Shown in pieces: positions 1 to 58,780 of a DNA stretch of 64,000 nucleotides. The stretch covers positions 101,990,991-102,054,990 of the forward strand of contig NC_080423.1 in assembly GCF_029873635.1 (NCBI RefSeq), in the 5' to 3' direction. The notes beneath the pieces were generated by a model. It saw nothing but the letters and a program-made list of their open reading frames with translations, was not told the DNA's origin and did no database searches. Made by a program: the position numbers and the translations under genes. The stretch is from Malania oleifera. Its lineage: Eukaryota > Streptophyta > Magnoliopsida > Santalales > Ximeniaceae. The first letter of the stretch is position 1, and every line of letters begins with the position of its first letter.

Positions 1-289
1 TATAATCCCAGACTCGTCGACGAGAGGGATTCGTTGACGAGACATGTCATCTCGTCGATGAGTCCATGAAGAAAGTTCGTCGATGAACTTGAAGCCCTCG
101 TTGACGAATTTCAGACTGCCAAAAGCCCCCTCTCGGTATCTTCTCGTCAATGAGACACAACCTCGTCGACGAGACCTTCATGTATTCTTGTCGACGAATC
201 TCATGTGTTCGTCGATGAGACCCTGCTTAATTTTCTTCTTTTCTTTCCTCCTCCTATTTTAAATTATGAAAATTATCTGGGTCTCTACA
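1..289 (-). mobile_element. Partial LTR of gypsy element A (3' LTR, minus strand)
   Basis: Read on the minus strand, this LTR begins with TGTAGAGACCC at 289 and runs out of the window at position 1. It is preceded, at about 290-301, by a purine-rich tract (minus-strand GGAAAGGGGAA) typical of a polypurine tract. It carries many CTCGTCGACGAG-type motifs. The family matches LTR B at 12244. Only part of the LTR is in the window, so length and age cannot be given. Confidence 0.75.
10..240 (-). promoter_or_regulatory. TCGTCGACGA motif array in LTR A
   Basis: About nine exact or near copies of CTCGTCGACGAG (variants with CGTTGACG, CGTCGATG, CGTCAATG) lie about 20-30 bp apart. They sit in the promoter-proximal half of the LTR. 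Equivalent arrays occur in LTRs B, C, D, E and G. A regulatory role is inferred from position and repetition only. Confidence 0.45.
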
Positions 290-1638
290 TTCCCCTTTCC
301 TTATAAAATTTCGTCCTCGAAATTTACTATTTGTGTTGAACACCATTCATATAATTTACCATCCTTTAGAGATAAACGGTCTACTTATTTTATTACTTAC
401 CCTTACTTATGGCGGAGGAATACCGTGGTTACATTCAAAGTCCTGGGAGATTACAAATATACCTAAAAAGAAAATTCTCCCAAAACCGAAACACTACCTA
501 TCCTATAATCTAAAGTACAATATAATTATCGCTCTACACTGAACAAACTTTATCTTTATCTAATCATACTAATTAATACTACAATTCATTAAATAAATGT
601 GGGTATTTCTATTTAATTTCTTCTTCAAGCTCCCACGAAACTTCTTCTATAGCATGGTTTCTCCATAAGACTTTTACCACTTGAATTTCTTTAGTGCGCA
701 ATTCTTGTATCTTTTTGTCCAAGATCTGTACTGGTGCTTCTTCATAAGCTAATGAATCTTTAAACTCTATTTATGCATAACTGATTATGTGGGATGGATC
801 TGGGACGTATTTCCTAAGCATAGCTACATGAAATACGTCGTGTATTCTAGACAAAGTTGGTGGTAAAGCTAGCCTTTAAGCAACTGACCCCACTCTCTCT
901 AATATCTTAAAAGGGCCAATATACTTAGGGCTCAGCTTGCCCTTCTTCCCAAACCTCATAACCCTTCTCAGAGGAGTTACCTTAAGGAATACTCGATCTC
1001 CCATGTCAAATTCTGACTCTCGGTTGCATGTGTCTGCGTAGCTTTTCTACCGACTCTGAGTTGTGCTTATTCTTTCTTTAATTAGTCGTATCTTACCATA
1101 CGCCTTCTGTACTATCTCTGGACCCAAAACTCGCCTCTCGCCTACCTCATCCCAGAAAAGAGGAGAACGACATCTCCTACTATATAATGTCTTGTAAGGT
1201 GTCATGCCGATACTAGCCTGATAGTTATTATTATAAGAAAACTCAACTAGCGGCATAAATTAGGTCCAACTACCCCTAAAATCTAGCACCCACCCATGAA
1301 GCATATCTTCTAATGTCTGGATCGTCTTCTCAGTTTGACCATCCATCTAGGGGTGAAAAGCTGTGCTGAATGCTAAATGTGTACCCATAGCCTCTTCAAA
1401 ACTTTTCCCAAATCGTGAGGTAAACCGAGGATCTCGATCTGAGACTATGGATACCAATACTCTATGGACGCGTACTATTTCCTAAAACATATATTTCTGC
1501 CAATCTGTCCATGGAATAGTCGACTTTAATAGGGATGAAATGAGTGGTCTTCGTCAGACGATCAACAATCACCCAAATTGCATTCAATCCATGTCGCACT
1601 AGTGGTAACCCAATAACAAAAATCCATAGAGACATAAC
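290..1638 (-). pseudogene. Fossil 3' pol of gypsy element A: integrase and chromodomain-type C terminus
   Basis: The minus strand encodes recognisable Ty3/gypsy integrase core, integrase C-terminal sequence (phrases such as PLVEFSYNNNYQ and the following PYKTLY region) and a terminal chromodomain-like block (KVLWRNHAIEE) near 600-760, followed by the polypurine tract and LTR A. This order identifies the 3' third of a Tekay/Del-type chromovirus. The element is broken, with several breaks and no gag, protease or RT in the window. At about 1.62-1.64 kb it meets an integrase fragment in the opposite orientation. Confidence 0.75.
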
Positions 1639-2082
1639 AGAATGCTATCTGGGTAGTCGTTGATTGACTGACAAAGACAGCTCACTTCCTACCTATTAAA
1701 GTTAGCTACCCTATAAACAGATTAGTAGATATCTACATTCAAAAGATTTTTCGACCCCATTGAGTGCCAGTATCTATAGTCTCGAACCGTGACCCACGTT
1801 TTACGTCACTATTTTGGAAGAGCTTGTAGGAGGCTTTCGGGTCTCAATTAGCATTCAGCACCACTTTCCATCCTCAGACAGAGAGAATAATCTAGGTACT
1901 TGAGGATATGTTGCAAGCGTGTGTATTCGATTTCAAGGGTAACTTGACCCAGTATTTGTCATTGGTTGAATTTTCCTACAATAACAGCTATCAGGCCATC
2001 ATTTAGGAGGTTTCGTTCTCCTCTATACTGGGATGAGCCAGGTAAGAGGCGAGTTTTGGGGTCAGAAATAGTGCAGTAGGCG
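1639..2082 (+). pseudogene. Fossil integrase fragment of gypsy element B (left part)
   Basis: Plus-strand sequence encodes a degraded Ty3/gypsy integrase core (phrases NAIWVVVD, LTKTAHFLPIK, LVEFSYNN). It stops where the LTR of element C begins at 2083. The same reading continues beyond C at 11445, so C inserted into B. Same chromovirus family as A and C. Broken. Confidence 0.7.
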
Positions 2083-2154
2083 TGTAAAGACCCAAACCCG
2101 TAAATAAGAAAATAAATAAGAAAACAGACAAAAGGGAGTATTCCTACAGGGTTC

Positions 2155-2370
2155 GTCAATGAGAGCAGCACATTCGTCGACGAAGTCCCTTTAGTGCCTC
2201 ATCGAAGAAATTCAGAGCGTTGTCGATGAGGGAATACCGAGCGAGCCAAGGAAATATTCGGATAGGGTTCAGCGATGAAGGTATGGCTTTGTTGACGAAC
2301 TATGTGGCTGGCTCGTCGACAAAGACGCCGCCTCGTCCACGAGTTTGACTCTGTCAAAAGCCCTATAAAT
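2155..2370 (+). promoter_or_regulatory. LTR C promoter: TCGTCGACGA array plus TATA box
   Basis: Six to eight motifs related to TCGTCGACGA, several decayed to CGTTGACG, CGTCAATG or CGTCGATG, are followed by TATAAAT at 2364 and, about 40 bp further, by a CT-rich tract. This is a plausible retroelement promoter; the start site itself is not visible. Confidence 0.5.
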
Positions 2371-2407
2371 ATCCATTTTGGTTGCTTAAGGGCTAAGGAA
2401 ACCCAAA

Positions 2408-2443
2408 AGCTCTCTCTCTCTCTCTCTAGAACCAGCAGGTTCC

Positions 2444-2485
<42 letters not shown>
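2408..2485 (+). repeat. CT-rich microsatellite in LTR C leader
   Basis: Two (CT)n tracts separated by a short unique stretch, just downstream of the LTR TATA box. The same arrangement recurs at about 9630-9692 in the 3' LTR. A (CT)n also follows the TATA box of LTR B. Confidence 0.85.
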
Positions 2486-3327
2486 ATGATCCTTCATCGT
2501 TTGTTGCTCGTTTCTGCAAACGGAGGTTCCTATGGTGATCAGGAGAGGAAACTCTACAATTATAGCGAATCAGAACATCGTTTTGAAGATTTCGAGATTT
2601 TTCCCAAAAATCGAGGTAAGGATTTGATTCCATTTTTTATTAGGTAGTTATATAGTAGTTTAGATTTCAGTGAAGTAATGTTCTGTGATATTTAGGTTTT
2701 GAGGATTCCGGGTCGTTGTTTTGGACCGATCTGTATGTATTTCTACTTCCGGGTTTAAAGTAAGGGGAACTTGTTTACAATAGTCTTTTTGTAAAGCTAA
2801 ACCACTAAAAAGATACTTTATGCTTATATGTATGATTTGACTACTTATTTACTGAATTTCACTCGGTAAAAATGTCGGTTTTCATGATTTTACGATTTTT
2901 TGGTAAAAATATGGATTCTGGCATATGATCTCCAAACTTTACAAAACTTCTTTATTTGCATTAATATTATGATAGGAGATGCTTGAAACCCTTATTTCTC
3001 ATTTAAAGGATGTTTATTGTATTATGTATTGTATAGCGGACTTTTGATCAAACTAGTGTGACACGTGTATCGAAATGGAATGTGAGAATCATTTATACTA
3101 CTTGTATGAACTATGGGAACTGGAGTTCTATTTTTGCTATACAGAAAATATGTGAAACAGGTGCCGGTTATATACCGAGCTATATGCGTAAAAAGGGTAA
3201 ATCGAGAGTGTGTGTCGGTTTATACCCGAAGTGATTGTATGAGTTTGTGAAAATACTGGAATTGCATAGGATAATACGTTTTCATTATAAATTGTATATA
3301 TGATAAATAGAACTACAACTTGCTACC

Positions 3328-3425
3328 AAAGGAATTGAAAGAAACTTTAGTAAAGGAGTTGAAACATACTTCAGTATAAAATTTCAAACATACTTCAGTA
3401 TAGAGGGGTTGAAAGATACTCCCAA
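3328..3425 (+). repeat. 24-bp minisatellite inside LTR C
   Basis: About four degenerate units around TTGAAACATACTTCAGTA lie in tandem. The same array is in the 3' LTR at about 10535-10630, so it predates the insertion of C. The third unit differs between the two LTRs. Confidence 0.75.
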
Positions 3426-4241
3426 AGGTTCGGTTTTGTAGTTAGTAAAGTACAGTGCAACCACACATGTGAATCAGTGTGGGTACAGAGATAGTCGGCT
3501 TGCAGGAGTAATGAAACCATTGGTGAAACAATGGACCAGGTGGGTGCAGTCGGACTGTATAATAGATACTTGACAGTGCCTACACGAACAAGGCATCGTT
3601 AGAGTTATCAGTGCACAAGCCGTGCCACAGGGTAAATAGGCGTAATATGTCATACCAAGTTGGTCGTCATTCTACATATTCATATACATGATTTAAAGCT
3701 TTTATAGAAAAAATTTATAGTATTTACATTGTTATACATGTTGCTTCATAGTATTGAAAATGTTCGTTGTATGTATCAGATTTAATTGAAATAAGCATAT
3801 GCAGTCACACACTGTTGCAATATTTTTCCGCCTTATTGAGAAGTGTCTCACCCCATTAAACAACCTTTTTTCAGGTTCTACTAGACGACAGTCCTAGTTG
3901 ATAGAGGGACCAGGGAGGTGATTTTTGAGTTTAGCTTACGTAAGTATTCGATGTGTGTAATAACCCTAGTTCAGAATATCTTTTTAGGAGATTGTAAGTA
4001 TTGGTTATGTTTTAGGTATGAATGTCTGTAGTTAAGAATACGACTTGTAAACTCTGGTATATGTCTAGTAGAAATCCCGATGAATGTTTATGTTTTTCGC
4101 TACAATTGCACTATAGTTGTGTATGATTTAGACCCATATGTCCCTGTTTAGGGCGGGTTGTTCATGTATGTTTTACAGGTACAGGTATTCTGTATTTGTG
4201 ATAACAGTACTGGTCCGTATAAAGGGTCGAGTTGTTATAGT

Positions 4242-9298: not shown

Positions 9299-11444
9299 TG
9301 TAAAGACCCGAACCCGTAAATAAGAAAATAAATAAGAAAATAGACAAAAGGGGGTATTTCTACAGGGTTCGTCGACGAGGGCAGCACGTTCGTCGATAAA
9401 ATCCTTTCAATGCCTCGTCGATGGAATTCAGAGCGTCGTTGACGAGGGAATATCGAGCGAGCCAAATAAATATCCGGATAGGGTTCGGTGATGAAGATAT
9501 GGCTTTATTGATGAACTATGTGGCTGGCTCCTCGACGAAGATGCCACCTCGTCGACGAGTTTGACTCGGTCAAAAGCCCCATAAATATCCATTTTGGTTG
9601 CTTAAGAGCTAAGGAAACCCAAAAGCTCTCTCACTCTCTCTCTCCTCTCTCTCTCTAGAACCAGCGGGTTCCCTCTCTCTCTCTCTCTCTCTACGATCCT
9701 TCGCCGTTTGTTGCCTGTTTCTGTAAACGGAGGTTCCTACAGGGATCAGGAGAGGAAACTCTACAATTATAGCGGATTGGATCATCGTTTTGAAGATTTC
9801 AGGATTTTTCCAAAAAATCGAGATAAGGATCTGATTCCGTTTTTTATTAGGTAGTTATATAGTAGTTTAGATTTCAGTGAAGTAATGTTCTGTGATATTT
9901 AGGTTTCGAGGATTCTAGGTCGTTGTTTTGGACCGATCCGAACGTATTGCTACTTTCGGGTTTAAGGTAAGGGGAACTTGTTTACAACGGTCTTTTTGTA
10001 AAGCTAAACCGCTAAAAGATAGTTTACGTTTATATGTATAATTAGACTACTTATTTACTGAATTTCATTGGGTAAAAATGCTGGTTTTCATGATTTTACG
10101 ATTTTTGATAAAAATATGAATTTTGGTGTATGATCTCCAAACTTTATAAAACTTCTTTATTTGCATTAATATTATGATAGGAGATGCTTGAAACCCTTAT
10201 TTCTCATTTAAAGGATGTTTATTGTATTATGTACTGTATAGCGGACTTTTAATCAAACTAGTGTGACATGTGTATCGAAATGGAATGTGAGAATCATATA
10301 TACTACTTGTATGAACTATGGGAGCTAGAGTTCTATTTTTGCTATAGAGAAAATATGTGAAACAGGTGCAGGTTATATACTGAGCTATATGCGTAAAAAG
10401 GGTAAACCGAGAGAGTGTGTGCCGATTTATACCCGAAGTGATTGTATGAGTTTGTGAAAATACTGGAATTGCACAAGGTAATATGTTTTCATTATAAATT
10501 GTATATATGATAAATGGAACCACAACTTTCTACCAAAGGAGTTGAAAGATACTTCAGTAAAGGAGTTGAAACATACTTTAGTAAAGAAGTTGAAACATAC
10601 TTCAGTATAGAGGGGTTGAAAGATACTCCCAAAGGCTCGGTTCCATTGCTAGTAAAGTATAGTGCAACCACACATGTGAATCAATGTGGGTATAGAGATA
10701 GTCGGCTTGCAAGAGTAATGAAATCATTGGTGAAACAATGGACCAGGTGGGGGCAGTTGGACTATGTAATAGATACTTGACAATGCTTGCACAAATAGGG
10801 TATTATTAGAGTTATCAGTGCACAACCCATGCCATAGGGTAAATAGGCGTAATATGTCATACCAAGCTGGTCGTCGTTCTACATATTCATATACATGATT
10901 TAAAAGCTTTTATGGATAAAATTTATAGTATTTAAGTTACTATACCTGTTGCTTCACAGTATTGAAAATATTCGTTGTATGTATCAGATTTAATTGAAAT
11001 AAGCATATGCAGTCACACACTGTTGTAATATTTTTCCGCCTTACTGAGAAGTGCCTCATCCCATTATACAACCTTTATTTCAGGTTCTACTGGACGTCAG
11101 TCCTAATTGATAGAGGGACCAGGGAGGTGGTTTTTGTGTTAACTTTACGTATTCGATGTGTGAAATAGCCCTAGTTCGGAATATCTTTTTGGGAGATTGT
11201 AATTATTGGTTATGTTTTAGGTATGAATGTCTATAGTTAAGAATACGACATGTAAACTCTGGTATATGTCTAGTAGAAATCCCGATGAATGTTTATGTTT
11301 TCCACTGCAATTGAACTATAGTTGTGTATGATTTACACCCGTATGTCCCTGTTTAGGGCGGGTTGTTCATGTATGTTTTACAGGTGCAGGTATTCTGTAT
11401 TTGTGATAACAGTACTGGTCCGTATAAAGGGTCGGGTTGTTACA
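9299..11444 (+). repeat. 3' LTR of element C
   Basis: Starts TGTAAAGACCCG and ends GGTTGTTACA; 2146 bp, homologous end to end with 2083-4239. Contains the same motif array (9365-9565), a degraded TATA (ATAAATAT near 9581), a CT tract (about 9630-9692) and the 24-bp minisatellite. Confidence 0.88.
9365..9565 (+). promoter_or_regulatory. TCGTCGACGA motif array in 3' LTR of C
   Basis: Copies include TTCGTCGACGAGG and CTCGTCGACGAGT. Several positions that read CGTCGACG here read CGTCAATG or CGTTGACG in the 5' LTR, and the reverse also occurs. Each copy has lost different CpG sites by transition. Confidence 0.45.
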
Positions 11445-12243: not shown

Positions 12244-12329
12244 TGTAGAGACCCGAAGAATTATAGTAGTTAAATAATAAAAGAAAAGAGCAAAATAGGG
12301 AAATATTTAAAGGGAATTTATAGGGTCTC

Positions 12330-12542
12330 ATTGACGAACATAGGGCGCTTGTCGACGAGCATCCTTCTTGGGTTTGTCGACGGGGACATTCATCTCGTCA
12401 ACAAGAAGTTACCGAGAGGGCCGTTTTCAGTGCCTGAATCTCGTCGACGAGGAGTAGGCGTTGTTGACGAGACTACACTTGGACTTGTCAACGAGGTGAC
12501 GTGGCTCGTTGACGAGGCCACGTGAACAGCATTTTATATATA
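12330..12542 (+). promoter_or_regulatory. LTR B promoter: motif array plus TATA box
   Basis: About eight copies of the motif in its variants (TTGTCGACGAG, CTCGTCAACAAG, CTCGTCGACGAGG, CGTTGACGAG) precede TATATATA at 12535. The last spacer also contains GGCCACGTGA, a perfect G-box core (CACGTG). Confidence 0.5.
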
Positions 12543-12579
12543 GCCCTAAAACGGATTTTTTTGATGGAAATTTCATTTT

Positions 12580-12619
<40 letters not shown>

Positions 12620-13966
12620 AAATGGTTTCTCTAACTTCTCTATAAGATTTTGACTCCGTCTCTCCCTGGTTTGACGATCAGAAGCTACCACCATGATCCT
12701 GGGGAGATTCTCTATAACATAATTGGAGCGAAATGTTGATTTGAGAAGTTCGGGAACCATCCCAAAACCAGGGCAAGTAGATTATTTGAGTATTTTCAAT
12801 ATTACCTAGTTTATTTGAGGTTAGATTCTGTATTATATGCAAATATACTAGAGCTTTGTGAAGTAAAATCAAGGTCTTATATTTTCAGGAATAGGGTGTT
12901 CCTGCAAGCAAGGGTTGAGGATCTCAGTGTGTGGTATTTCAGAAATGCAGGTAAAATGATATATGGATTATAGTCTAGGATTTGAGCATATGTGGATTTG
13001 AGAATAAATGTATGCGATAATTATTTAGGTGAAACCAGTTGTTTGATTGGGAGATTATGTGTGTATTATCTCAGGATGTTGAAGTTATAAATACCGCACG
13101 TGTGAGACTGTAAATAGTAGTTAGAGTTCAGATAGTCAGGTAAGGAAAATATGCTATGTTAGGAATTTTAGTATGATTATTAGTAAAAATTACATGTTTT
13201 ACCAGATTATTATTATTCAGATTATAAAATATTTTTTATAGCAAAAAATACAGATTTTAGAGCATGTGAATTTATTTATTTAAATCATGTGGCATGAGCT
13301 TATAGTAAATTAGCACAGTATTTATGCGGCAACAAATACCATGTTTTATAGTAAATTAGAAAAAAATATCATGGGATATATATATATATTTTATAGAATG
13401 ATGAATTTTCAATACATATACAGAGAGAAATTATACAATATATTTAGAAACATGATTTACAGTATACGTATAGAAACCTATATTTTTAGAAATTTCAAAT
13501 TTCCATGATTTCAGAACCATAACACCTAGTTTATCAGATACACAGATAGATACATAGATAAACAGACATTAAATATTCAGTCAGTTACTCAGATTTTCAT
13601 ATTAGTTTTGTAATGTTATGGTTATTTCAAAATCATGGTAAACCAGTAATATAAAATATATGTTACATATATATTATTAGACCCTAATGGACCAGATTCA
13701 GATAGCATAGCACGGTATCGTAGTTATATTCAGTTTTGAGTGCAACCACATAACTCAGATAGTATGTGGATTCAGCAGTCGATCGTGCCTATGTTGTGGA
13801 CAGGCTCCCTATCAGCCAGAGTTGAGGAAGCCGATCTGACTTTCGGAGTTCAGTTGACTAATCTTGGTCGGCTAGCCAGGATAAGTCCCACCTATAGGTC
13901 GCACAACCTTGTCATGAGGGGTTAAATCATGACTTTCAGTTAGCCATCTAGTGAAGTTTACTCAGT

Positions 13967-13971
<5 letters not shown>

Positions 13972-14008
<37 letters not shown>
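13972..14008. repeat. (AT)n microsatellite
   Basis: Nearly pure AT dinucleotide run inside LTR B. A homologous AT run sits at the matching place in LTR G (about 55518-55557). Confidence 0.85.
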
Positions 14009-14011
<3 letters not shown>

Positions 14012-15663
14012 TATTTACAGAAACTGTAGACATACCTATGAATATTAGAAGTATTATGAATAGAAAATTCAGAAAAACAGTTTATGTTGAATAACATAAG
14101 TATGAGTTATATTGCACATTATTTATACATGTTTTATCAGAATCAACTATTTATGGTATTTCTAAATCCGTTTTTACAAATATGCAAACTCACCTGCTAC
14201 ACACTAGTAATAGCATATCTTGTCTTACTGAGCGTGGTCTCATCCCAGTGATTTAACATTTTTCAAGTGATCCAGCTAGGCGAGCAGATCAGGCTCGCAA
14301 ATAGAGGGGACTACAATATTGCCCTGTCTGTGGGGTGAGTATTTTGAGAAGTCATTTTTGGAGTAGTCCCTAGGTTCAGTTGAGGGTATTTTTGGAAATG
14401 GCTGTATATGCATATTTTAGGAAACTTCTTATACTCTGGTATTGTATATATTGTTATGATTGTATGTATTTTGCTTCCCGCTGTTTAGGTAGTTTATTGG
14501 GTTCCAGTTTCCACGGTCCCTATTTGGCCGTGATGATGGTTTGGTTTATTAGAAGGTATCGGAGTAGGGGTGTCATGACCTGCTCATTTTACTCTTTTTT
14601 TTTTTTATATTATCAACATTATAAAATCAATACTACATATCCCACAATCCAACTCAGCAGGTTACCATCCACCTGGACCCGTGGGTACCAGGGATATAAC
14701 AAAACATACAGCAGAAGCCTACGCAGCAGAAAGTATAAAATTATATAAATCTCATCATAATGTGCCAAATACATACCAGAGTACTATAAACACTAACTCT
14801 CAATATATATACATCCCAAAAATGGAATCTAGGGACAATTCCCACAAAACCTTAACTGTCCCTACTAAAAACTTACCTTTCGCAGAGGGCAGATAAACAA
14901 CACTACTTTTGCGGGGCTTTTCCGCTTTCCTATCGGGGGCTCCTGAAAAGTTAATAAAATTTAGGGGTGAGACACCTTTCAGTAAGGGAAATAAACTAAT
15001 ACTAGTGTGTGGCAACATGAGAAATTTGTGTTCAACATGTATCATATATATAACACATTTAGTACTATTTCATCCAATCTGGGAAAACATATATATATAA
15101 ATCAACATGGCAGAACATACTGCATATTCATAACATATCTTAACTCATGTTATAAGAATAATAATAACATAAAACAATCCTGGTAGGTTAGCTGGCTGTT
15201 GTCATGTATTACCCCCACATGACTGGGTTGTGTGGCCTAAAGGCAGGACCTGACAATGGTTGGCCGACCACTGCCAAGTCGATAGTTTAGTCTGTAGGTT
15301 CGATGGGTCTACCCAGACTGGTCCGTACACCAGGGGCGATAACAGTACACTTCTCGAAAATAACCACATCGACCATCCAATCTCACACCACTCCGTACAG
15401 CGGCGTTAACACAGATATCATGATCACTGGGATCATGGACACATAGCAACGGTACCGTGCAAGTGCTAGCCTAAACCAAGCCAACCAGGTTCTGATATCA
15501 TATACATATACTGAAATCATGATACATAAATATCTCATTTCATTTATTTTCACATCAATCGTATCATTTCACATATATACATGTATCATAAAAATCATTG
15601 GCCTGTACACCGGTATTTCTCATTTTAACATAGCACGGCCCGTACGCCGGCAAACATATCCAC

Positions 15664-15664
<1 letters not shown>

Positions 15665-15690
<26 letters not shown>
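15665..15690. repeat. (AT)n microsatellite in LTR D
   Basis: A run of about 13 TA units in solo LTR D. Confidence 0.85.
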
Positions 15691-15694
<4 letters not shown>

Positions 15695-16410
15695 AAAACA
15701 TCTCGACCCGTACGCCGGTTTTCCCTCATAAAAATTCACATCATCCACATTCCCAGAAAACAACATTACACAATATTTTTACTCATGCCACACAGTAGAT
15801 TTTCCATATACTCAACATATGATCATTTTCACAGTATTTTGCAAATATAAAACATACATATATATAAACATATACATTTTCCATAAATCAAATGATAACT
15901 ATATATATTTATAAGCATTTTCCAAAACAATACTAGTTTAGCTTATCCCCTTACCTGATTTCTGGGAAGCCCCTAATAAAATTGCCCCGCACCCGCAGGG
16001 TTCCTAACTCAACACTCTGAATATGAAAAATCCTAGAATTAAAGTTCAATATTTCGAAGTATACAATATTTTCCTCAACTGCCAAAAACTCAAATATTTG
16101 GTAGAAAGTTTTCGCCCAAAAGCATTCAAGTTTAACACCTGAGGGGTTCCCTAACCAACACTCTGAAACTGAAAACCCCCAGTATTAAACTTTAGTATTT
16201 TCATGCGCACAACATTTCTTCTAATTAGCGCAAGACCAAATATGGCTTAAAAAACCTTACCTCAACTTTGGGATGATTTCCAACTAACTTTCTCCCACGA
16301 TCCGCTCCAGCAGATTTGGAGAGAACTCCGCCAGGAGCGTCGTGGTGACTTCGGATCGTCAATCTGACGACTGGTGGGGCCGAAAACGTAGAGAGAAGGG
16401 AGAGAGAACC

Positions 16411-16455
<45 letters not shown>

Positions 16456-16504
16456 GTTGCGTAAAAAAATAATATCTCTCCCAGGTTTTTCATTCTTATA
16501 AAAC

Positions 16505-16705
16505 AGGATTTCGTCGACGAGCCTGACCTTCGTCGACGAGTCCTTCACAAATTTCGTCAATGAGACCCTGTGTTCGTCGACGAAATTTAGGCTGCCTCAG
16601 AACCTCTCTCGGTATTTTCTCGTCGATGAATACAAGGGATTCGTCGACGAAGCCCTGAAACTCCCCCTTTTTGTTTTTCTCTTCCGAAATGCAATGTCGT
16701 CGACA
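16505..16705 (-). promoter_or_regulatory. TCGTCGACGA motif array in LTR D
   Basis: Seven to eight copies, several undecayed (TTCGTCGACGAG, TTCGTCGACGAA), in the promoter-proximal part of the solo LTR. It retains more intact CpGs than the arrays in C, consistent with a younger insertion. Confidence 0.45.
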
Positions 16706-17153
16706 AAGTCTACGGCTTCCTTTTGTTTCCGGTTTCCATTTCCCTTTCCTTATTATTTAAATTTCATTTTTAAATTCGGGTCGTTACAAGGGGGATTTCA
16801 CAATATATATATATAAGGGGAAAAATGGTATGAAAAATCAAGTCGCTACAAAAATGGCACTGAGAATAAGCTTATCTTGTCTGATCTAGTAGGTTCTTTG
16901 AAGGATAGAAGTGAAGATATTAGTGGAGTTGGGACATGGTTTATCACCAGTAACATACTCAAGTAGATAATACCCAGTGAGGAGGGCTTCAAACTGGGCA
17001 TGCCATTGAGGGAAGGTTGAAGGTTGAAGGTGTGAGGTTTTCATTTATTTGGGTAGTGATAATGAGAGCAATAAGAGGGATCTCTATTGGAGAGGGTGGA
17101 GTTGTGATCAGGTTCTCAGGGGAGGAAGGCTCTCATGATACCATGATATAGTT

Positions 17154-17645
17154 TGAAAATATTGACAACAAAATTCTTATTACTCTGAGGAAGAGTATTT
17201 CACCCTCCTAATACAAATGTTTGTATGGAAATATATACAAGTATACAAAATTTATTCTAAGAATGAAAGTTAAAAAATAAGTCTAGCTGTTACAAAGTTT
17301 TAACTCCTGATTTGCCTAACTGTTACAAAGTTTTAACTTGTGATTTGCCTAACTGTTACAAAGCTTTAACTCATGATTTGTGGCTGTTACAACCAAATTT
17401 ACATCCTAATAATCAGGTTATATGATCATGTGCTTGATTTGAGGAGTCCTCCTTTATACCGTTGACGATTTAATATCGAGAGCAAACAATCGAAGCAACA
17501 GCACCAAAACCGTTGACTGTTTCTTGCCATCCTGACAAAACCGTCGACGATTTCTCCTACAAACCTGCTGTAAACCACAACTTTTCTACCAAGTGTACTT
17601 ATTGTACATGCATTCCACTTAATATATGAGTGACATATCATAACA
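17154..17645 (-). mobile_element. Copia-like LTR with adjoining leader (minus strand)
   Basis: Read on the minus strand, it starts TGTTATGATATGTC at 17645 and ends near TATTTTCA at 17154. About 10 bases further lies TGGTATCATGAGAGCC, close to a tRNA-Met primer site. The length (492 bp), TG...CA ends and primer-like site fit a short copia-type 5' LTR plus leader (16851-17153). The element is cut by LTR B at 16850, so only this end is in the window. The superfamily is inferred, not proven by coding sequence. Three CGTCGACG-related motifs lie at 17455-17560. Confidence 0.5.
17287..17385. repeat. 33-bp tandem triplication
   Basis: Three successive units beginning CTGTTACAAAG at 17287, 17320 and 17353, with minor differences, within the copia-like LTR. 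Confidence 0.85.
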
Positions 17646-33039: not shown

Positions 33040-34974
33040 GGCCCCTTTCTGCTCTGTTAGAAGAAATCAAAACTCGAAAAATTCCCAATCAATGAGAGAA
33101 AGAGAAAGATCAAAATCACTGTTGTCAGAAATCAAAACCAAAGTGGTGGAATGGTGAATGAATGAATGAGAGAGAGAGAGAGAGAGAGAGAGATAGATCG
33201 ATCAAAGGATTTAAGAAGAGAGAGAGGGTTGACTAATAAATTCGAAGAGAGAAATGAGTGGGAAAGAGGGACGGGGTGGGTCAGAAGCCACATGGGCATA
33301 GCGGCCGACCGGGGGTTTGGTGAATTAGGGGTTTTGCTACTCTACCGTCAGCTCTACCCATGTTCCTCCAACCCCGCCAATCACATCCATCCACCTCATG
33401 CAATTGAGATTTTGCAGTTTTCCTTTTACTCCTCTGGGCTTTTTATGAGAGAATAAATTAAACGAAACACACCCAAACGTGTCTCCTCACAAGCCTTTGT
33501 CTTAGACTTTTTAAATTTTGAAAAACCCTTTTCATTCAAAAAAGCTTAGAATTATTTGGTCGGACCAAAGAGAATAAATTTCAAATTTTGAACAGATTTG
33601 TAAGGAACTTTTATGTAATTTTTTATTATATTTTGTCTAAAAGCGTAAAAATTTAAATTCAAAATTTAAGTTCAATATACTCAAATATAGTATTAATATA
33701 ACTAAATTTTTGACTATAAATTATGGACCGGCAAACTTTAAACATGCAAAAAAAGATTATTATGATGTCTACTTTAGAAGTGAACATGATTCAATTAACT
33801 ATCAAATTCCTAAAATGGCTAAACTTGTGTTTATTAGAACACCAAATCAAAACTCAATTATCTTGATCAATTAATCAAGCCAATTATTTTGAAATTTGTC
33901 CTGCTCAGGCTAAAAATTAGATATATTTAAAAAATACTGTCTGCCAGCATGTAAAAAATTAATATTTCAGGATTTATAAATTTAGATTTAAATTGTTTAT
34001 AAGAAACCAATGGTCAACTACAATTTTGAAATTTTCAAACCAAAATCAAATCTATTATTAACAAAAGAAAATATATTATTCCTCAATGACTGATAAATTG
34101 ATTTTTCAAATTTATAGCTTGCAAGCAGGTTTAGCTCTTATGAACATGTTGAAGACTTTTAAAGCATGAAATACTCATCCTCTACTTGGTTTGAGAGACA
34201 TAAAGTAAGATTTTATTTTTTTTATTCTTTAAAAGGTTGTAAAATACGCATGATTCGAATTTTCCGAGTCTTTATTAATAGAAATGATGAAGAGAATAGT
34301 TCAAAAAATTTAAGTTTTATTTTCAAATTCTAGGAGTGCGAGGTTAGTATTTTCCTTTCTATTGTTTTTTTCTGACTATCTATTTTTTTTTCAACAAAAA
34401 ATATTTATTTTTAGTTTAGGGCACCCACCTTGACACACTTTTTTTACATGTTGTATTTTTGTGCAAATGCAAAGACCTACGGTCCATTCTCTGGCATGCA
34501 CTTAACCAATAACCTATTTGCTTTTTTTCTTTTTCTTTTTCTTTTTTCTTGCACTGTTTCTTTCGGACAATCTTTCTTGTCTTCATACACAATGATTAAA
34601 TATTTTTTAAAAGAAATGAAATGAAGGATACGCTACTTTAAAATTTGCAATCTTATTAATGTATATTTGATATTACAATCATCCACACCATAGGAATATG
34701 GAATAATAAATTTTTCTTTTTCATTTTTATAAAAATTTAAGAAGTTTTGTCATCTTTCTATAGTTTAAGTTTGAAAAGAAAATTCTATTTGCTTTCGAGG
34801 AAAATAGTCTTATAGCTAAGCTTGTTTTCATTTTTAAAGTGTTTGGGTCATCCAACAATTCTTGTGAGAGGAAAATAGCTTGTGGTCAACATAAAAGACC
34901 TAGCACAATCAAAAATAACTTCGCTTTCTCATGACAGAAGTCCTTTTCCCAACTCAATGGCGCCTGAATTTTCT
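33040..34974. other. Intergenic region upstream of AMC1
   Basis: Contains the AMC1 promoter and leader, including a GA tract (33167-33193; CT on the gene strand) about 130 bp upstream of the ATG, a common feature of plant 5' leaders. Beyond about 33450 the DNA is AT-rich with no recognisable gene. Confidence 0.5.
33167..33193. repeat. (GA)n tract in AMC1 leader/promoter
   Basis: Thirteen or so GA units, reading as CT on the AMC1 strand. Position suggests 5' UTR or core promoter. Confidence 0.85.
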
Positions 34975-42000: not shown

Positions 42001-45000
42001 TTGAAAAATGGGATTGAGCCAGACTCATGCAGTGCTCACCTAGCACAGAGCTTATAAAAGAACAAAGGAACCAAGGCACACTGCCATCCAATAAAGGAAT
42101 AAAAGGCAGCTAAGCACATGCCCTACAAGTTGTAAATTGTAAGCAAAAGAAGATACGAACAAGTTCTTTTTTCTAACATTTACGTAGTTATATATCAGGT
42201 AATGCAAAAGCAAATGCACATTCACAGAGAGTAGCACATGTTTGAGTCTAGGGTTTATCAGCCTCGCAAGAAATTTGGGGGAGGCAGGCAAAGCTGCCTA
42301 AAGCTATCTTACACAGAGCCAGCTATAAGTGGGAGTGTTGTTCACTAGGCCAAACTCTTTTTTATGTAATTAAATCTAACTTCAAAACTGCACTAAACAA
42401 ATAATGAGATGATCAATTCAAACAAAGTAATCTTGTCGGTTAAAGAATTAAACCTCACCATTAGATGTTTCAACATCCAAAATCAAATCAAGCGCATCAT
42501 CATAATAAGGAATTTGACTGCTCAACCCAAAAAGATTAAAATCATCTTGGATGTAGTCATCATCAACTTCACAGAAAAATTCATTTCCTTTCTGGTTGCA
42601 AAACCATGAGATCCAAGAAGTGTAATCCCCATCAGAGCCACTAACATCTGAATCTTCTCTGCTTGTCTCAGATTCATCTGCAATTAAAAAAATGTGAACA
42701 TCATCTATGAATTATTTATAATGAGGGCACAAGCTCCAGGTTATTATTCACCAAAAATTGATTAAAAAAAAATTAAATTAAATAGGGCCAAAAATACCGA
42801 CATCCCAGGTTTGACAAAAGTTACAGACATTCCCTCGCTTCTAAAAAAATTCCACTGACCTCCCCTAACACTAACCTTTTTTCATAAATGGCGCAGATAC
42901 AATTTTTTTTCTGAAATTTTGTCCTTGTGATCTCTGCACATCTCTGACTCATTAGTCGTTACTCGTTTTTTCAAGCAATTTCAAATGCTTCTCTCTCCCC
43001 AAAAACTACCTGTCAAATCCAATTCCTCCAAAGGGTCATTTAATTACTTTGATATTCCCATTCCAAATTGACCATCCTCATCAAAGAGCTTTATTTGCCA
43101 TATGCAGTGTGGGGGCCGCAGTGCCCCTGCCAAAGACACTGCTGACCATGTCACCATGGTAAGGGAGTCTTCCTATCAAATCCAATACCTCCAAAGGGTC
43201 ATTTAATTACTTTGATATTCCCATTCCAAATTGACGATTCTCATCCAGGAGCTTTATTTGCCATATGCAGTGTTGAGGATGCAGTGCCCCTGCCGAAGAC
43301 AGTGCTGACCATGTCACCATGGTAAGGGAGTCTAATGGCATATTCTCCAACCATGCTGAATGCCTCTATATTCAATTGTGCAATTCTAATGTACTATGGA
43401 TTGGAACAAAAAAAAAATTTGTAGCAAAAGAAGAAGTTCATTGATAGATCTGGTGACCAGGAGAATAGGACATCTCCTTAAAAACATCTTGGATAATCCA
43501 GATATAAAATTAAAAATACAAAAAAAATAAGAATCAAAAAAGAAAGGAGAACAAGAAAAAAAAACCAGCACACACTATCAATCCAACAAATATCAACAAT
43601 TGCACTAAATATTGGAAAACCTCACCACCTTAAAGTTCCCATGACCCACACAGTAAAGAGAAGCCATGTAATGAATCTTCTCGCAAACCAGCAGAGACAA
43701 CAACTTCTTCCCCGAGAAAATATATGCATTGCGTTCCAGCAACAGCCCCCAAATTACTGCAAAAAAGCACATCTCCAGAGCACTGCCCTGTCCTTTTTCC
43801 TACCAAAACCAACAAAAGGAATTGCCAAAATGGACAAACCAACCATTCTCCAAAAAAAACAAATAACTTATTCCTGTGTTGGAATAAAATTCGAGTACTG
43901 GCCCAGGGTAAAAAGTGCAAAAACCCCATTCAAATCATAGTTACCCAGGACGCTGTAAGTTCTAGTCATGGTACTGGTACAGGTATGGAGTATGTAACTT
44001 AGCACATGGTAGGTGAGGGGTAGGCTTCATAGTTTTAAATAGTGGTAGCAGGTAGCATGGTGTAATGGTGACGAGTGTAGTGAGAAGCAGGAGAAGCGAT
44101 TATTATATACTGGGAAACAAGTGCTACAGTCAACTTATCCATATTTATATTTTTGCATGTTTTAAGCTCTTAACTCTTATTTAAACGAAAAACTAATCCA
44201 TTTTGGATCATTTAGTTCAACTAGCCAACATTGTATAGACAACATTTAATTAAATTTCTTTTGACAGAAATTATATTTTTTTCTCTTTCATTAGCAATCA
44301 TGAATTTTCCTCAAGCACAGACAACCTGATCCAATTATAAAGTTGGACGTTTTAAGCTTCTAACTCTTATTTAAAAAATAATAATAATAATAATAATAAT
44401 AATGTATTTTGGATCATTTAACTCAACTTGCCAACATTGTTTAGTAGGATAATAAATTTTACACTGACTTTAAATTGCTATTGACAGAAAAATTATATTT
44501 TTCTACATTCCTTAATCATGTGTAAAAAATAGAATACATTAGCATATAATATGTATTCTCCATTAATCTATTAGACACATAAAGCATACAACAAATTAAA
44601 CATGTTCTTTCGTTTTATTAGTTAAAAGTAATAACAATCTAATAAATTTAGACAAGAAAGTTATATTGTATAACCTAAATTTTAAAAATATAATATTATA
44701 ATCATAAGATATATCATTAAAAAAATAAAGTATTAACAACAAGAACAAGACAAAAACTAGAAAATGAAAGAATGTGAAGTTGAACAGCATAGAAAATTAT
44801 CAAATTAATAATATTATCAAAATAAATAAGTTTTTTAAATACAGCATTTTTCATATAAAATTGTTAGTTAATGTGTATCTTGTGAATGTTACAAAAAAAA
44901 TAAATAAATAAATAAATAATTCTAGATCACTATCATCTTCATTATAACCTTAGCCCCCTCTATTAACATAGTTAATCAAGATTGACTTACGAAAGGAAAA

Positions 45001-53150: not shown

Positions 53151-53176
53151 TGTAATGACCCGAAAATTTTAATGAT

Positions 53177-53424
53177 AAAATAATTGGAAAAAATAATAGA
53201 TGAAAAAGATAAACAAGGAATAAAGGAAAAGAATGGAAAAGAAAAGTTTAGAAGAAAAAGGGAAAAGAAATTGTAAAAGGGAACAAATAGATGCTCGTAT
53301 AAAATAATTGGAAAAAATAATAGATGAAAAAGATAAACAAAGAATAAAGGAAAAGAACAGAAAAGAAAAGTTTAGAAGAAAAAGGGAAAAGAAATTGTAA
53401 AAGGGAACAAACAGGTGCTCGTCG
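53177..53424. repeat. 124-bp tandem duplication in LTR E
   Basis: Units 53177-53300 and 53301-53424 begin AAAATAATTGGAAAAAATAA and differ at only a few bases, so the duplication is much younger than the nest. Confidence 0.9.
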
Positions 53425-53550
53425 ATGAGCATGATTTTCTCGTCGACGAGAGATCTTTGGAAACTCGTCGACGAGTTTACGGCCTTGTCAACGAGTGTTC
53501 TTCAGTGGTTCGTCGACGAGTCCTATCTTCTCATCGATGAGTCCACGTGG
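53415..53550 (+). promoter_or_regulatory. TCGTCGACGA motif array in LTR E
   Basis: About seven copies, including TCTCGTCGACGAGAG, ACTCGTCGACGAGTTT and GTTCGTCGACGAGTCC, end at CCACGTGG and TATAAGAAGG (near 53554). The related LTR F lacks any such array. Confidence 0.5.
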
Positions 53551-54083
53551 CAAAGTCGAGTATAAGAAGGTTTGGGGAAGCTCGGATTCAGCTCGAATCA
53601 ACGATCGAAAGTCGCTACGGTGTTCTAGGGAAGATTCTCTACACATCTTGCAGATTAGTTTCTTAAATTGGGCTTTTCGGGAAACGCTTCTAAGTTTAAG
53701 TAAGGGTTTGGATTCTTAGTTTTGGGTTTTAAAAAGATTATTTAAGGTTATTAAGTTGAGAAAATGTATAAATAATAGTTTATTTAATTAAATTAGGGTT
53801 TTTAAACCAGAGACTAGGTGAGCATCATAGGCATAAGATTGGGATACCTGTTGGTGTAGTTCAAGGATTCAGGTAAGGGGGAAATTTATATATTAAATTA
53901 GGTTTTTATGAATTAAATGGAAATGGATTATGTTTTATTTATGTATATATGTTTTCATGTGGGTATAAAATGTCAATCATGTAAATTACGTTTTCTGAGC
54001 TTAGGTGTAACGCCCTGAACCCTTAAACCAAGGTTCAGTGCGTTATACCTGATAAAATTCATAATAATCCATAATTCACGATT

Positions 54084-55509
54084 TAACGACCCGAAGAATA
54101 ACGATATTTAAATAATAAAGAAGAAAGAAATGGAAATAGTAACAGAAAGAGGCAACCGACTTCATCTTTGGAGGTGATAATTCCAAGAAAATTTCCCAGA
54201 CCTCGTCGACAAACACAGGGGTTTCTTCAACGAGGGTACTTCAGGATCTCGTCGACGAGGTCCCGTCTCGTCAACGAGAAGATATCGAGAAGGATTTTTG
54301 GAAGTCTGAAATTCATCAACGAGGGAGCAGGTTCGTCAATGAACTTTCTACAGGACTTGTCGACGAGGTGACGTAGCTCATCGACGAATCCCGCAATATA
54401 AATAGTGCTTAAACTCAGTTTTTGCGCAGAATCTGACCAAAGACCCCCTTCTCTCTCTCCTCTACAGCCCTTCCCCTTTCTCTCTTTGATTTCGGCCCCG
54501 TCAGTCGCCGAATCATCGATCTGAGGCCACCACGACACTCGTGGTGGAGTTCTCTTCAAGTCTGCTGGGGCGGATCGTCGGTGGGATCAAGTCGAATTTC
54601 TTCCTAGAATCAGGGTAAGGTCTTTCAATCAATTTTTAGCCTTCTGTCAGTTGTAGGAAATGATGTAGGCAAAGAAATATTGATATTCTGTTATGGAGAA
54701 TGTTGTATTCAGGGTGTTGAGTGGAGAGCCCTGCAGGTATAGGACCAATATACGATAAGGGCTTTTAATAGTTAGGTAAGGGAAATATGCTATGTTAGAC
54801 TAATTTAGTATGATTTTCAGTATAGTATAAATATTTATACCAGATTATTATTCACAGTATGAATTAATATAGTTTTACAGTTTATCCATTGTGTATAATA
54901 TGTTTTAAATTACTATGTGGCTTGAGAATATAAATATAGTACAAAGACATGCTTTATAGTATTTTCAGAGCTATGTTTTACAGAAAATATTTATAGTAAT
55001 TACAGAATACCATGATTGTTATAGTTGATACAGATACAGTTTATAGTACCATGACATACAGTTTTACAGCTTATTTCTGAAATGCAGTTGATACAGATAT
55101 AGTTTATCACAGCATCATGATTTATACAATTATTATAGAATCATGGTAAAACAGATAGTGGTATATAGAGATATATTATATAGTATCATGCCCTATTGGA
55201 CCGTTATAGATTACAGAGCACGGTACCATTGCTATATACAGTATATAGAGCGCAACCACCTATTCAAATAATACGTGGTATAAAGGTCGATCGTATAAAG
55301 CCCACGAGTGGACAAGCTCCCTATCAGATATGGGTTGAGGAGGACTGATCAGACTGATGGAGTTTAGTGATTTATTCTTGGTTGGCCAACTAGGGTAAAT
55401 CCTGCCTACGGGCCGCACAACCTTGTCATGAGGGGTTAAATCATGACACACAATTATCCATAGGGAAGTTTTCAGTTATTACTATGTTTATACAGATTTA
55501 CAAAGACAG

Positions 55510-55561
<52 letters not shown>

Positions 55562-56094
55562 GTATTTTGAGTAGAAACCTAAAGTACAGAAATGTTAAGT
55601 AACAGGAGAAAGGTGATAGTTATATTACTGGTATTGTATTTTACAGTTTCAGTGATACATGATTATATAGTAATAGATTTTTATAGTATTGTAACTCATT
55701 TGCCACACACTAGCAATAGCATATTTCGTCTTACTGAGTGTTGACTCATCCCAATTACTTTAACATTTTTCAGGTGATCCAAGTAGGCGAGCAGATCAAG
55801 CTCACAGATAGAGGGGTGTTAGTATTGCCCTGACAGTAGTGTGAGTATTTTTTGGGAGTATGTTTGTATAGTCCTAGCCAGTTGAGGGATTCTGAAAAAC
55901 AAACATATATGTATATTTTGGGAAATACGTTAGCACTCTGATGTTGTATATAATTATATATGGTTATGTTCATTTGATTTCCGTTTCTCGCTGTTTAGGT
56001 TGATGGTTGGGTTTAATTCAGTTTGGCATTAAAGCATTATAAATGTTATAGAATATATATATATATAAAACCCAAGTTAAATAGCAGGTCGTTA
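54084..56094 (+). mobile_element. LTR G (B-like gypsy LTR) inserted in F
   Basis: Its ends are an 8-bp inverted pair, TAACGACC at the left and GGTCGTTA at the right; the flanks CGATT and CAATT fit a 5-bp target duplication with one transition. The body is homologous to LTR B, including the block with CTCCCTATCAG and CATGAGGGGTTAAATCATGA and an AT microsatellite (55518-55557). It has a motif array (54195-54395) followed by TATAAATA (54397-54404) and a CT-rich leader. No coding part; solo LTR. Confidence 0.7.
54195..54404 (+). promoter_or_regulatory. LTR G promoter: motif array plus TATA box
   Basis: Eight or so motif copies (CTCGTCGACAAAC, CTCGTCGACGAGG, TTGTCGACGAGG and decayed forms) lie at 20-30 bp intervals, then TATAAATA at 54397. 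Same order as in LTRs B and C. Confidence 0.5.
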
Positions 56095-56505
56095 CAATTA
56101 TATGCATCGGAAAACATAAACATATTCTCTATATAATATAAAAACATAATCAATAATACCAGAGTTTACTACCCCTATATAACATCCCTACTATCCATCC
56201 AACACCTGCATTACCATAAATACATACCTCTCCAAACATTCCAGTATTTTCACAATCATTCATTTCATAACTGACTTAAAACATAAAGATATAAAACATA
56301 AACATTTACATTCCCCAAAGTATTATCATTATATACCCTTTTTCTTTTATGATTCTCAAAAAGGCTAAAACTCTCAAGCTTCCTAAGCTCGATCTCGAGG
56401 AAATCCTGAAAAAAGATACATTTATATTCGGGTGAGACACATCTCAGTAAAGGAAGAAACAATATAATAAACACAGGGTATGGCTAACATGAGCTATATA
56501 AGTAT

Positions 56506-58780
56506 TGTTAGCTTTATCGTAATCCCAAGAGGGGGGGTGAATTGGTATTTTTAAAATTTAACTCTTAGGTGTTCCTCCTATGTTCACAACCCTATGGTCA
56601 ATCTAATGCGAATAATGTAAATATATCAGAAATTAAAAGAAGCAGTTTAATTAATTGCACAAGCACCAGAAAGCAGTAAATAAAGGGTGACACGCAGATA
56701 TGTTATCGAGGTTCGGTCAACTGCCTACGTCCCCACCTTGGCTAACCAGCACAAGGATTATCACACTAACTTGCTCACTTTAATGGGTGGAGCGGCACCT
56801 ATACAAACCAGGTCAAATTATCACAGGGCTGACCTCAACCTTTACACCAATCCTTACCGAACTGGATTACCGCCCCCTCAGGCCACGCCTGGAATCTCTC
56901 AGATATACAATTAAACGGTACAATATATGGGTGCTTTCATGTAAAGAAGATTTGTACCACAAATGCGCACAAACACAAACACCACAGATGATTTAAAATG
57001 TAAGCTCTGTGTGGTCTAGATATTTCAACTCTCAAATATGTTTTCTATCAGTGTAGTAAGTACGTGAGAGTGTCAAACAAGCAATCTGTGTATCTCAAAG
57101 TATTTCAATCAAATGTGTTCACACAGAATATCAAATAAGCCTCAAGAATATCAATCAATAGAATATCTCAATCATGGAAGTATGTATATGCTTGGATTGC
57201 AAAATATATTGGATCTTTGTTTTAGCAAAAATATTTGAGTGAATAAATATTGCAACAAAGATGTTTCACCTCAAATACAAATATTGCCTCAAATGGTTTT
57301 CAAAATAAAGAGCAATAGATATTTGTAAATGGTTTTGAAAATATTTCGCAACCAAAAGCAAAAATGAGCTTCTTAAGATATTGCAACAAATATACAATCT
57401 CAGAAGATCTAGTAAAGTCTTCTCGGGATGAACTTATTGGCTACGCCCCCTAAGAATCCTTTTGGTTCAGCTCTTAATAAAAATAGATCAATCTTACAAC
57501 CAAGAGAGAGCAAACCTTCCTATCTAAACACTCAAGAATACTTACAAATGATTTTACAAGTATTGAATGTAAGCTAGAGTGTATTTGGAAGAGTATGAGT
57601 AAATGGGAATCAAAAGAGAGTGTTTTTGCTTGAGAGAGATTTTCTTAATCTTTTTGCTAATCGATGCTTAATCCACCAAATGAAAGAGTATATATAGACA
57701 TACTAAAAATTTTGACCGTTGGGGACCTATTAGGGATTGTTAGAAAAGATTAATGATATTTAAATCAATTTAACCCTAATTAAAAATATTTAACCTGCGG
57801 TAAAAATGATGACAACCCGAGAGGTCCGGTCAACCAAAAATGTTTCGGTCGACCAAGTCTCAAATGGTTCGGTCGATTAGGAAACATTGAACTAAGGGCA
57901 CGGTCGACCAGGAGAAGGCGATTTCCCAATTTTCTGAGTTTCGATCGACCAGGGCATTTTGAACTGCCTGGTTCGGTCGACTAGACCGCTGGGAATTCTC
58001 CCGAGAACCCTTCGGTTGACCAGGTAGTTGGAGAACAAATGTTCTCGGTCGACCAAATGATCAACTGTTGACCTAGGAGGGTTTCGGTTGACCAGGGCCT
58101 TTTGAACTACCAGTTTCGGTCGACCAGTTCAAACTTTTGACCCTAGGGAGTTTCGCTTGACCAGAGCCTTTTGAACTATCTTTGCTGGTCGACCGGGTGG
58201 TCAAACTTTGACCCAAGGGAGTTTCAGTCGACCAGGGCCTTCTGAACTACCTTTGCTGGTCGACCGAGTGGTCAAACTTTGACCTAGGGTATCTCAGTTG
58301 ACCAGGCCAAAATGAACTAGCTTGGCTGGTCGACCGAAAGTGCATCGTGTGTGCATTTCAGTCCTGTATTGAAGCAAACAAGCCCTATTCAAGTGCCTAA
58401 CAAATATATGTGAAAGTGTGAGTGTCCTAGGGGCACTTAGGGTCCAATTTGAAGACATCGAAAAAGTCTGGTGTCGGTCGACTGAAAGGAAAACCCTAAG
58501 GTCTTTTTATGGTTATTTTTGGTTTGTATCTGGTTTGAGCTTACAAAATAAACCATGCATGTGATGTGTGTGCTTATTACAAACCGAATACCCTAATTAC
58601 TATTACAGACAAATTTCACTAAAAATTATTACAATTAAGAGCATGAGTTTATCTTCAAGCTTTGAGCTTTCACGTGCCATTGATGATATGCTAATATGAA
58701 CCTGCACATGAACTAGATATTTATTAAATACAAAAGTATTTGTCATTATCAAAACCAGGGTGTGACCTATAAGGTCAACA
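56506..58780 (+). mobile_element. LTR-like element H inserted in F
   Basis: Starts TGTTAGCTTTATCGTAATCC and ends AAGGTCAACA (TG...CA), 2275 bp. Flanked by AGTAT and AATAT, a 5-bp duplication with one mismatch, and it interrupts LTR F exactly there. It has no coding sequence. The near-terminal CCAAGAGGGGGGGTGAATTGG resembles the starts of LTRs common in plant genomes, possibly copia, but the superfamily is not proven. Orientation is assigned from TG...CA only. Solo LTR or non-autonomous element. Confidence 0.6.
57810..58350. repeat. GGTCGACC/TTGACC array with ~71-bp tandem units in H
   Basis: About fifteen copies of TCGGTCGACCAG-like words. From about 58064 they fall into four tandem units of about 71 bp, each with TTGACCYAGGGAGTTTC and CTGGTCGACCG. 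TTGACC matches the W-box core bound by WRKY factors. Function is not shown. Confidence 0.7.

Follow-up and report, generated by a model that had tools for sequence, protein, structure and literature searches.

GTCGAC-centred palindrome arrays in LTR retrotransposons of Malania oleifera and their probable role as promoter-proximal sites for a host factor

A 64,000-nucleotide stretch of the Malania oleifera genome (G000:C7:101990991-102054990, hereafter the window) contains several long terminal repeats (LTRs) of differently built retrotransposons that carry rows of short palindromic words with the hexamer GTCGAC at their centre. A first-pass annotation had pointed to these rows and read them as repeated recruitment of a binding site, and this raises the question of what the rows are, how they came to be present in unlike LTRs and what they might do. 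Comparison with the whole assembly (1,494,336,490 bases, 510 contigs) confirmed that the arrays are real and that the phenomenon is much larger than the window, and the earlier interpretation is partly supported. We think it probable that the arrays are proximal-promoter (U3) enhancers, that is, rows of dyad sites for a dimeric host factor recognizing the GTCGAC core.

The core is shared by three palindromes, CTCGTCGACGAG (type I), TCGGTCGACCGA (type II) and AAACCGTCGACGGTTT (type III). For GTCGAC itself, the window count is 37 (2.75 expected), which none of 100 dinucleotide shuffles attained, and CTCGTCGACGAG, with up to two mismatches allowed, is found 37 times against 0.14 expected. Assembly-wide, the exact type I word is present in 29,470 copies, compared with 36 copies of the reversed word and seven of CTCGACGTCGAG, a control palindrome matched in composition and CpG content (same letters, same three CpGs), so that the enrichment over matched controls expected from the first-pass annotation is borne out. 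The exact type II word has 17,197 copies (47 for its control), and the type III word, 2,219 (one for its control). The same contig was also sampled systematically, with 20 stretches of 10 kb taken every 5 Mb. GTCGAC has 63 occurrences there, where dinucleotide frequencies predict 9.2, and its ratio of 6.8 is exceeded, among all 64 six-base palindromes, only by the rare CGCGCG (10 vs 0.9). Clusters of at least three words in the sample number ten for type I (two for each of two control words), five for type II (controls, zero and two) and five for type III (controls, zero and one); ten dinucleotide shuffles of the sample yielded none. At least one cluster was seen in 16 out of 20 stretches, one of them (L060) being weak. 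Scans of viral contigs gave 41 loci with paired and eight with triple type I words, which we provisionally attribute to phage contigs and chance.

Those words that could be placed are parts of LTRs (Table 1). Type I belongs to Ty3/Gypsy, type II to Sirevirus-like copia (element H), and type III occurs in Gypsy as well as copia elements; GTCGAC is indeed the core common to differently built LTRs. LTR ends were determined for the elements of the window. The assignment of type I is based on element C, which has protease (RVP_2), RVT_1 and RT_RNaseH domains of the Gypsy kind, a reverse transcriptase (RT) matching Ty3-G Gag-Pol (7q5b, E 3.3e-38) and a weak chromodomain match (E 0.043, below the cut-off); its 5' and 3' LTRs are 90% identical. 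LTRs A, B, D and E start like those of C (TGTA..GACCC), and the start bases of F are altered. Beyond the earlier annotation, A, D and H were found to lie on the minus strand and B to be interrupted by the solo LTR D, with the target duplication AGGGG at 14566-14570 and 16789-16793. The copia-like LTR, whose three related words had been noticed, is of type III and is placed here at 17144-17645 rather than 17154-17645; it adjoins a primer site that we take to be of the tRNA-Met type, a tRNA gene search found none, and a 52-aa gag-like piece beside the LTR had no Pfam match. CT-rich tracts are seen downstream of the TATA box, in the presumed transcribed leader, in LTRs B, C, D and F.

Table 1. 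Palindrome-bearing LTRs of the window (positions within the window; TATA distances counted from the end of the array).
Feature	Position	Strand	Array	TATA-like box and other features
LTR A, Gypsy type, 5' part, extends left beyond the window	1..289	-	type I, 9 sites, 13-219	TATAAATAG, 8 bp, just outside the window
Element C, 5' LTR (C5), Gypsy	2083..4239	+	type I, 7 sites, 2152-2343	TATA, 20 bp; CT repeats downstream
Element C, 3' LTR (C3), Gypsy	9299..11444	+	type I, 6 sites, 9368-9559	ATAAATA, 21 bp
LTR B, Gypsy type, first part (rest 16794-16850, past inserted LTR D)	12244..14570	+	type I, 8 sites, 12327-12516	TATA, 18 bp; G-box CACGTG between
Solo LTR D, inside B	14571..16788	-	type I, 7 sites, 16510-16707	TATA, 9 bp
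Copia-like LTR	17144..17645	-	type III, three words, 17457-17554	TATAAAG, abutting the last word
LTR E, Gypsy type judged by start, end uncertain	53151..54008	+	type I, 6 sites, 53418-53541	TATA, 19 bp; G-box CACGTG between
LTR F, Gypsy type	54082..56096	+	type I, 8 sites, 54202-54388	TATAAATAG, 8 bp
Element H, Sirevirus-like copia, LTR only	56506..58780	-	type II, 14 TCGGTCGACCAG-like sites (at most three mismatches), 57826-58305; further CTGGTCGACCGA-like words as far as 58337; 71-bp tandem unit	CTATATATAC, 129 bp; polyC-rich block close to the LTR 3' end

The type I arrays follow a tight grid. The six to nine copies per LTR given by the first-pass annotation were confirmed, and its loose spacing of 20-30 bp had to be replaced: the commonest distances are 21 (n=38), 20 (n=19), 25 (n=18) and 24 bp (n=14), which places neighbouring sites approximately two helical turns apart. 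One gap of about 45 bp interrupts arrays A, B, D and F; array C has two decayed sites at its centre, and E has no gap. Immediately upstream of array E, with its six evenly gridded sites, lies a 124-bp tandem duplication (96%, 53175-53422). Among the 20 type I arrays retained from the 22 listed (L052b and L058 were dropped as short or weak), the distance from the last palindrome to the start of the TATA box is 8-9 bp in 11 and 18-21 bp in eight, and in the remaining one (L050) the TATA place reads TACAAATA. All seven arrays of the window fall into these two classes, in agreement with the TATA-like box previously noted just after the array, and the offset between the classes is about one helical turn. 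Most arrays of the 8-bp class have their dyad centres near -14, -35, -59, -79, -124, -144, -169 and -189 from the TATA box, the departures being A, with one extra site, and L056. In the longer class, the space between array and TATA box is filled by the G-box CACGTG in B, E and L054, or by the word TTTGACTC.GTCAAA (TTTGAC..GTCAAA) in C5, C3 and L048; these fillings are altered in L052 and L064.

Besides the sites, their assembly-wide excess, and the type I grid with its TATA distance, the analysis establishes the dyad symmetry of the sites and their conservation relative to the spacers. Across 100 GTCGAC sites of the sample and the window, complementarity of the flanking letters was 0.62 against 0.31 expected at positions ±1 and 0.36 against 0.23 at ±4; among seven other palindromic hexamers, a similar run, though weaker, was observed for CACGTG only (0.40 vs 0.28 at ±1), the rest being inconsistent. 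Over the 20 type I arrays, mean pairwise identity was 72% in site columns and 44% in spacer columns, compared with 26% expected from composition, values that overstate the conservation, since the sites were chosen by their likeness to the motif and the column alignment leans on them, and that come from arrays sharing ancestry and hence not independent. In an ungapped comparison of homologous sites, which omits the C5/C3 pair, the four T/A letters were 98.7% identical, the CpG letters, 71%, the outermost letters, 62%, and the 5-bp flanks, 41.6%. Thus, type I sites are kept while their spacers diverge.

Within one array, the flanks around different sites show 29.5% identity, compared with 28.5% for unrelated positions, and, the sites excepted, type I arrays are therefore no longer tandem repeats. 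This makes it very improbable that the sites are the functionless remnant of a minisatellite grown by slippage, as the 71-bp repeat of H and the alternation of short and long spacings, suggestive of two-site units, might otherwise indicate: the sites are alike despite the dissimilar flanks, Tandem Repeats Finder gave no row over the type I arrays of the window, and such a remnant does not account for the fixed distance to the TATA box.

The decay of type I sites is mostly CpG deamination. In 143 sites (two T/A letters required, at least eight matches out of 12), the inner ten letters contain 138 CpG transitions and 17 other changes, and the outermost two letters differ in 137 out of 286 cases; the observed-to-expected ratio of CpG averages 1.68 in the arrays and 0.54 in the sample. 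Words with a single C→T change at the central CpG, on either strand, number 14,980 assembly-wide (7,415+7,565), and those with a change at one cytosine of each outer CpG, 12,129 (6,134+5,995), so that stronger retention of the central CpG is not seen assembly-wide, the central one decaying somewhat more than the outer ones in this count. These numbers bear on the idea that WRKY factors are the binders and TTGAC words (W-boxes) their true sites, GTCGAC being a by-form. TTGAC is contained in the GTTGAC/GTCAAC forms, and the TpG forms of type II contain TTGACC, which is a W-box. However, the central TpG/CpA forms of type I amount to about half of the intact words and, per cytosine, exceed one kind of outer CpG decay by about a quarter; with the two so close, type I decay looks like plain deamination that does not strongly favour TTGAC forms, and for type I, a W-box array is highly improbable.

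Types II and III have other geometries. The separate array of H, recognized as such by the first-pass annotation, is followed by CTATATATAC at the same 129 bp in L062; CTATATATAG stands 129 bp after the last type II site in L071 and 127 bp in L059, and TATAAAA, 95 bp in L063. At L063:2673-2936, most words of a type II-like array end on the right in TGA (TCGGTCGACTGA), as if changed together. Type III arrays were found in Gypsy LTRs behind integrase ends in L072, L073 and L057 (SH3_Tf2-1 matches), and the last type III centre is at -25 to -27 from the TATA box in L073, L057, L068 and L080, the latter two being putative Gypsy LTRs. The tight grid is accordingly a feature of type I arrays, as TATA distances vary in types II and III.

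Copia elements carry type III as well. L077, with one intact word, is a Ty1/copia element: a copia-type RT (RVT_2, E 5.5e-8, above the cut-off) lies in the same orientation about 2.5 kb beyond the palindrome, in the neighbouring locus L083, with 726 unseen bases between the loci, and is accompanied by a gag piece below the cut-off (E 6e-4). L074 has a second, parallel LTR copy at a distance of about 5 kb (88% over 1,210 bp) and a weak copia gag piece (E 0.013, below the cut-off), which by itself makes it a presumed copia element. At two other type III loci, L081 and L075, no clear LTR was seen around the words. The sharing by superfamilies, which the first-pass annotation had rated the weaker half of its claim, thus came out stronger, type III being present upstream of the TATA box in Gypsy (L073, L057) and also in copia (L074, L077 and the copia-like LTR of the window).

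For type I, the earlier suggestion of repeated recruitment does not hold. A, B, D and F have a common grid and are alignable outside the array as well, and therefore the type I arrays are most likely of one descent, the very outcome that the annotation had set against its own reading; C has the same grid and aligns in short stretches only, and E aligns least. Type I and type III Gypsy elements align in the coding end and, for certain pairs, also within the body of the LTR (L070/L076, 1,122 bp at 68%; L064/L072, 214 bp at 72%), and so a single LTR frame has carried two palindromes of the same core. Clustering by flanks joined 41 out of 43 loci through chained repeats, and families were therefore not defined from it.

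Between superfamilies, the common core looks convergent. When L074, L077 and the copia-like LTR of the window were compared with the type III loci by BLAST, no Gypsy array or LTR was matched, which suggests that the GTCGAC core of the copia elements is independent. Ancestry rather than convergence would explain the core if recombination or template switching had carried one array from one superfamily into another, a possibility suggested by the presence of the same 16-bp type III palindrome in Gypsy and copia LTRs and by the Gypsy alignments above, according to which arrays can change within an LTR frame. We consider such an exchange quite unlikely, given not only the BLAST result but also the differing spacings: 20-21 and 24-25 bp in type I, 30-31 and 41-42 or 72-74 bp in Gypsy-like type III, 20-22 and 72 bp in L074, and 32 and 39-41 bp in H and L062.

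Position, geometry and conservation all fit a U3 array for a dimeric DNA-binding factor. Rows of dyad-symmetric GTCGAC sites in U3 would be bound by such a host factor, the type I sites keeping a set distance, and probably a set helical phase, relative to the TATA box on a grid passed down from a single ancestral LTR. As Sirevirus-like and other copia LTRs have the same core with other flanks, the same factor or factor family was probably recruited more than once, and members of one family would differ slightly in their flank preference. From the sequences we infer four things: binding of the sites by a protein, a dimeric state of that protein, activation rather than silencing, and a single binder for all three palindromes. 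More tentatively, a single dimeric host factor or family with a GTCGAC core may have been captured independently by the Ty3/Gypsy, Sirevirus-like and other copia lineages, each with its own flank and array. If this is true, tens of thousands of LTR sites in at least three lineages form one shared regulon, and silencing or loss of that factor by the host would affect all those LTR lineages.

Several points weigh against the enhancer reading, in addition to the inflated conservation and the shared ancestry of the type I arrays mentioned above. In decayed sites, dyad symmetry is no higher than in re-paired halves (647/858 vs 649.7), so that decay looks neutral after insertion. The TATA box is distant (95-129 bp) rather than tight in type II; the eight Gypsy-like type III LTRs include L072, with the TATA box 62 bp away, and L053b, L076 and L079, in which the TATA pattern found none; and in copia type III, the distance from the last word ranges from -2 to 115 bp, from abutting in the window to 77-115 bp in L078, L074 and L077 (L078 being a putative copia locus). 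The three flank types may correspond to three factors. Finally, a silencing role is possible by analogy with maize, where palindrome-rich Sirevirus LTR regions are reported to be hotspots that attract small RNAs (PMC5311732, PMC10760457).

The arrays would in that case recruit repression via hairpin-derived small RNAs and CpG methylation, and would persist because their loss costs promoter function. Array RNA folds better than shuffles in E (z -6.3) and H (z -7.8), and the predominance of C→T decay at CpG is what methylated DNA would show. Nevertheless, the advantage of F over shuffles is weak (z -1.9), the pairing of neighbouring sites in RNA gives no signal (complementarity of 887 vs 879.9 ± 9.3 of 1164 for re-paired sites), and hairpins do not need a fixed TATA distance. 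As F folds little above shuffles and neighbours do not co-vary, an RNA role is our second choice, and we regard the arrays as unlikely to be a silencing platform.

The repeated or symmetric LTR boxes of Tnt1 and ONSEN serve control by host factors, and their motifs differ from GTCGAC; we know of no core common across superfamilies for boxes of this sort. A symmetric Tnt1 box is also named by Bousios et al. (2010; PMC2829016), whose paper provides the closest known system, the palindromic RM boxes of 13 Sireviruses. Hence the statement of the first-pass annotation that no named element of this kind is known does not stand. According to that paper, RM boxes are Sirevirus-specific and absent from classic retrotransposons, and no common binder was found for them. 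The likeness is considerable: both are high-copy, CpG-rich palindromes clustered upstream of the TATA box in LTRs, with divergent flanks, and the Vitis RM box CGGTCGACCG is the core of the type II word of H, since TCGGTCGACCGA holds CGG..CCG and equals the Vitis word plus one base pair.

For this reason, H fits the known Sirevirus RM kind. As H is an LTR without coding region, this membership is judged by LTR features that PMC2829016 describes for Sireviruses, namely the repeated palindrome, the TATA box following it and the polyC-rich block towards the end. With 14 sites at approximately 450-950 bp of its 2,275-bp LTR, it agrees with the copy number and placement of RM boxes (at least eight, mainly in the upper LTR half); one further GTCGAC lies at about 300 bp of the LTR, read on the minus strand, and the polyC-rich block, as read in the sequence, about 20 bp from the LTR end. 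The other arrays differ. RM boxes are built on CGG-CCG, except in Tnd-1 (PMC2829016), whereas type I lacks this core, according to the letter counts of the 143 sites, and its host element C is Gypsy by domains and RT rather than Ty1/copia. In addition, types I and III occur here in Ty3/Gypsy LTRs (type III also in copia), GTCGAC is common to all three types, and type I has a fixed TATA grid. Our verdict is that the kind itself is known for Sireviruses, and that the Gypsy form, the shared core and the type I grid appear to be new. Among the matches listed in the open literature, outside which most subscription journals lie, nothing was seen on palindrome arrays of Gypsy LTRs, on the GTCGAC shared core or on the fixed grid; matches listed for the motif letters look unrelated by title and abstract start, and PMC6911290 deals with insertion targets, not with LTR palindromes.

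Another system with repeated noncoding motifs is that of the VANDAL transposons, where the element-coded VANC protein binds target arrays, the motif of VANDAL21 being YAGTATTAY (Hosaka et al., 2017; PMC5735166). The arrays are alike in that short motifs co-vary between related elements, but VANDAL transposons are not LTR retrotransposons and their motif differs. As for the binder, an AP2/ERF factor of the CBF/DREB kind is a lead only, suggested because GTCGAC is listed as CRTDREHVCBF2, a low-temperature responsive element, in a table entry of PMC4553201. The hexamer core is the same, but only the hexamer matches, and the entry refers to a plant gene promoter site without array or dyad context. 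A DREB1D site has been linked to plant LTRs generally in PMC11656987, the main text of which contains neither GTCGAC nor "palindrom".

With this design, palindromic boxes in LTRs would no longer be particular to Sireviruses and would count as a wider feature of plant LTR retrotransposon promoters, with a core common across superfamilies. What switches such elements on also becomes testable, given a short bait, the three flank types, a control palindrome of matched composition and a grid of known dimensions. Binding by a single factor would tie the activity of much of a 1.5 Gb genome to one host regulator.

Apart from the arrays, the window contains a metacaspase-like host gene on the minus strand (27587-33066), with an LSD1 zinc finger and a caspase domain in 32590-33066; the reading frame 27587-27982, judged by eye, resembles a further piece of this gene. 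A Gypsy gag piece on the plus strand (30751-31035) sits between the metacaspase-like pieces. At 38001-38222, plus strand, there is a reverse transcriptase fragment, perhaps LINE-derived (RVT_1, E 7e-7), and at 43006-43333, a 163-bp tandem duplication (92%).

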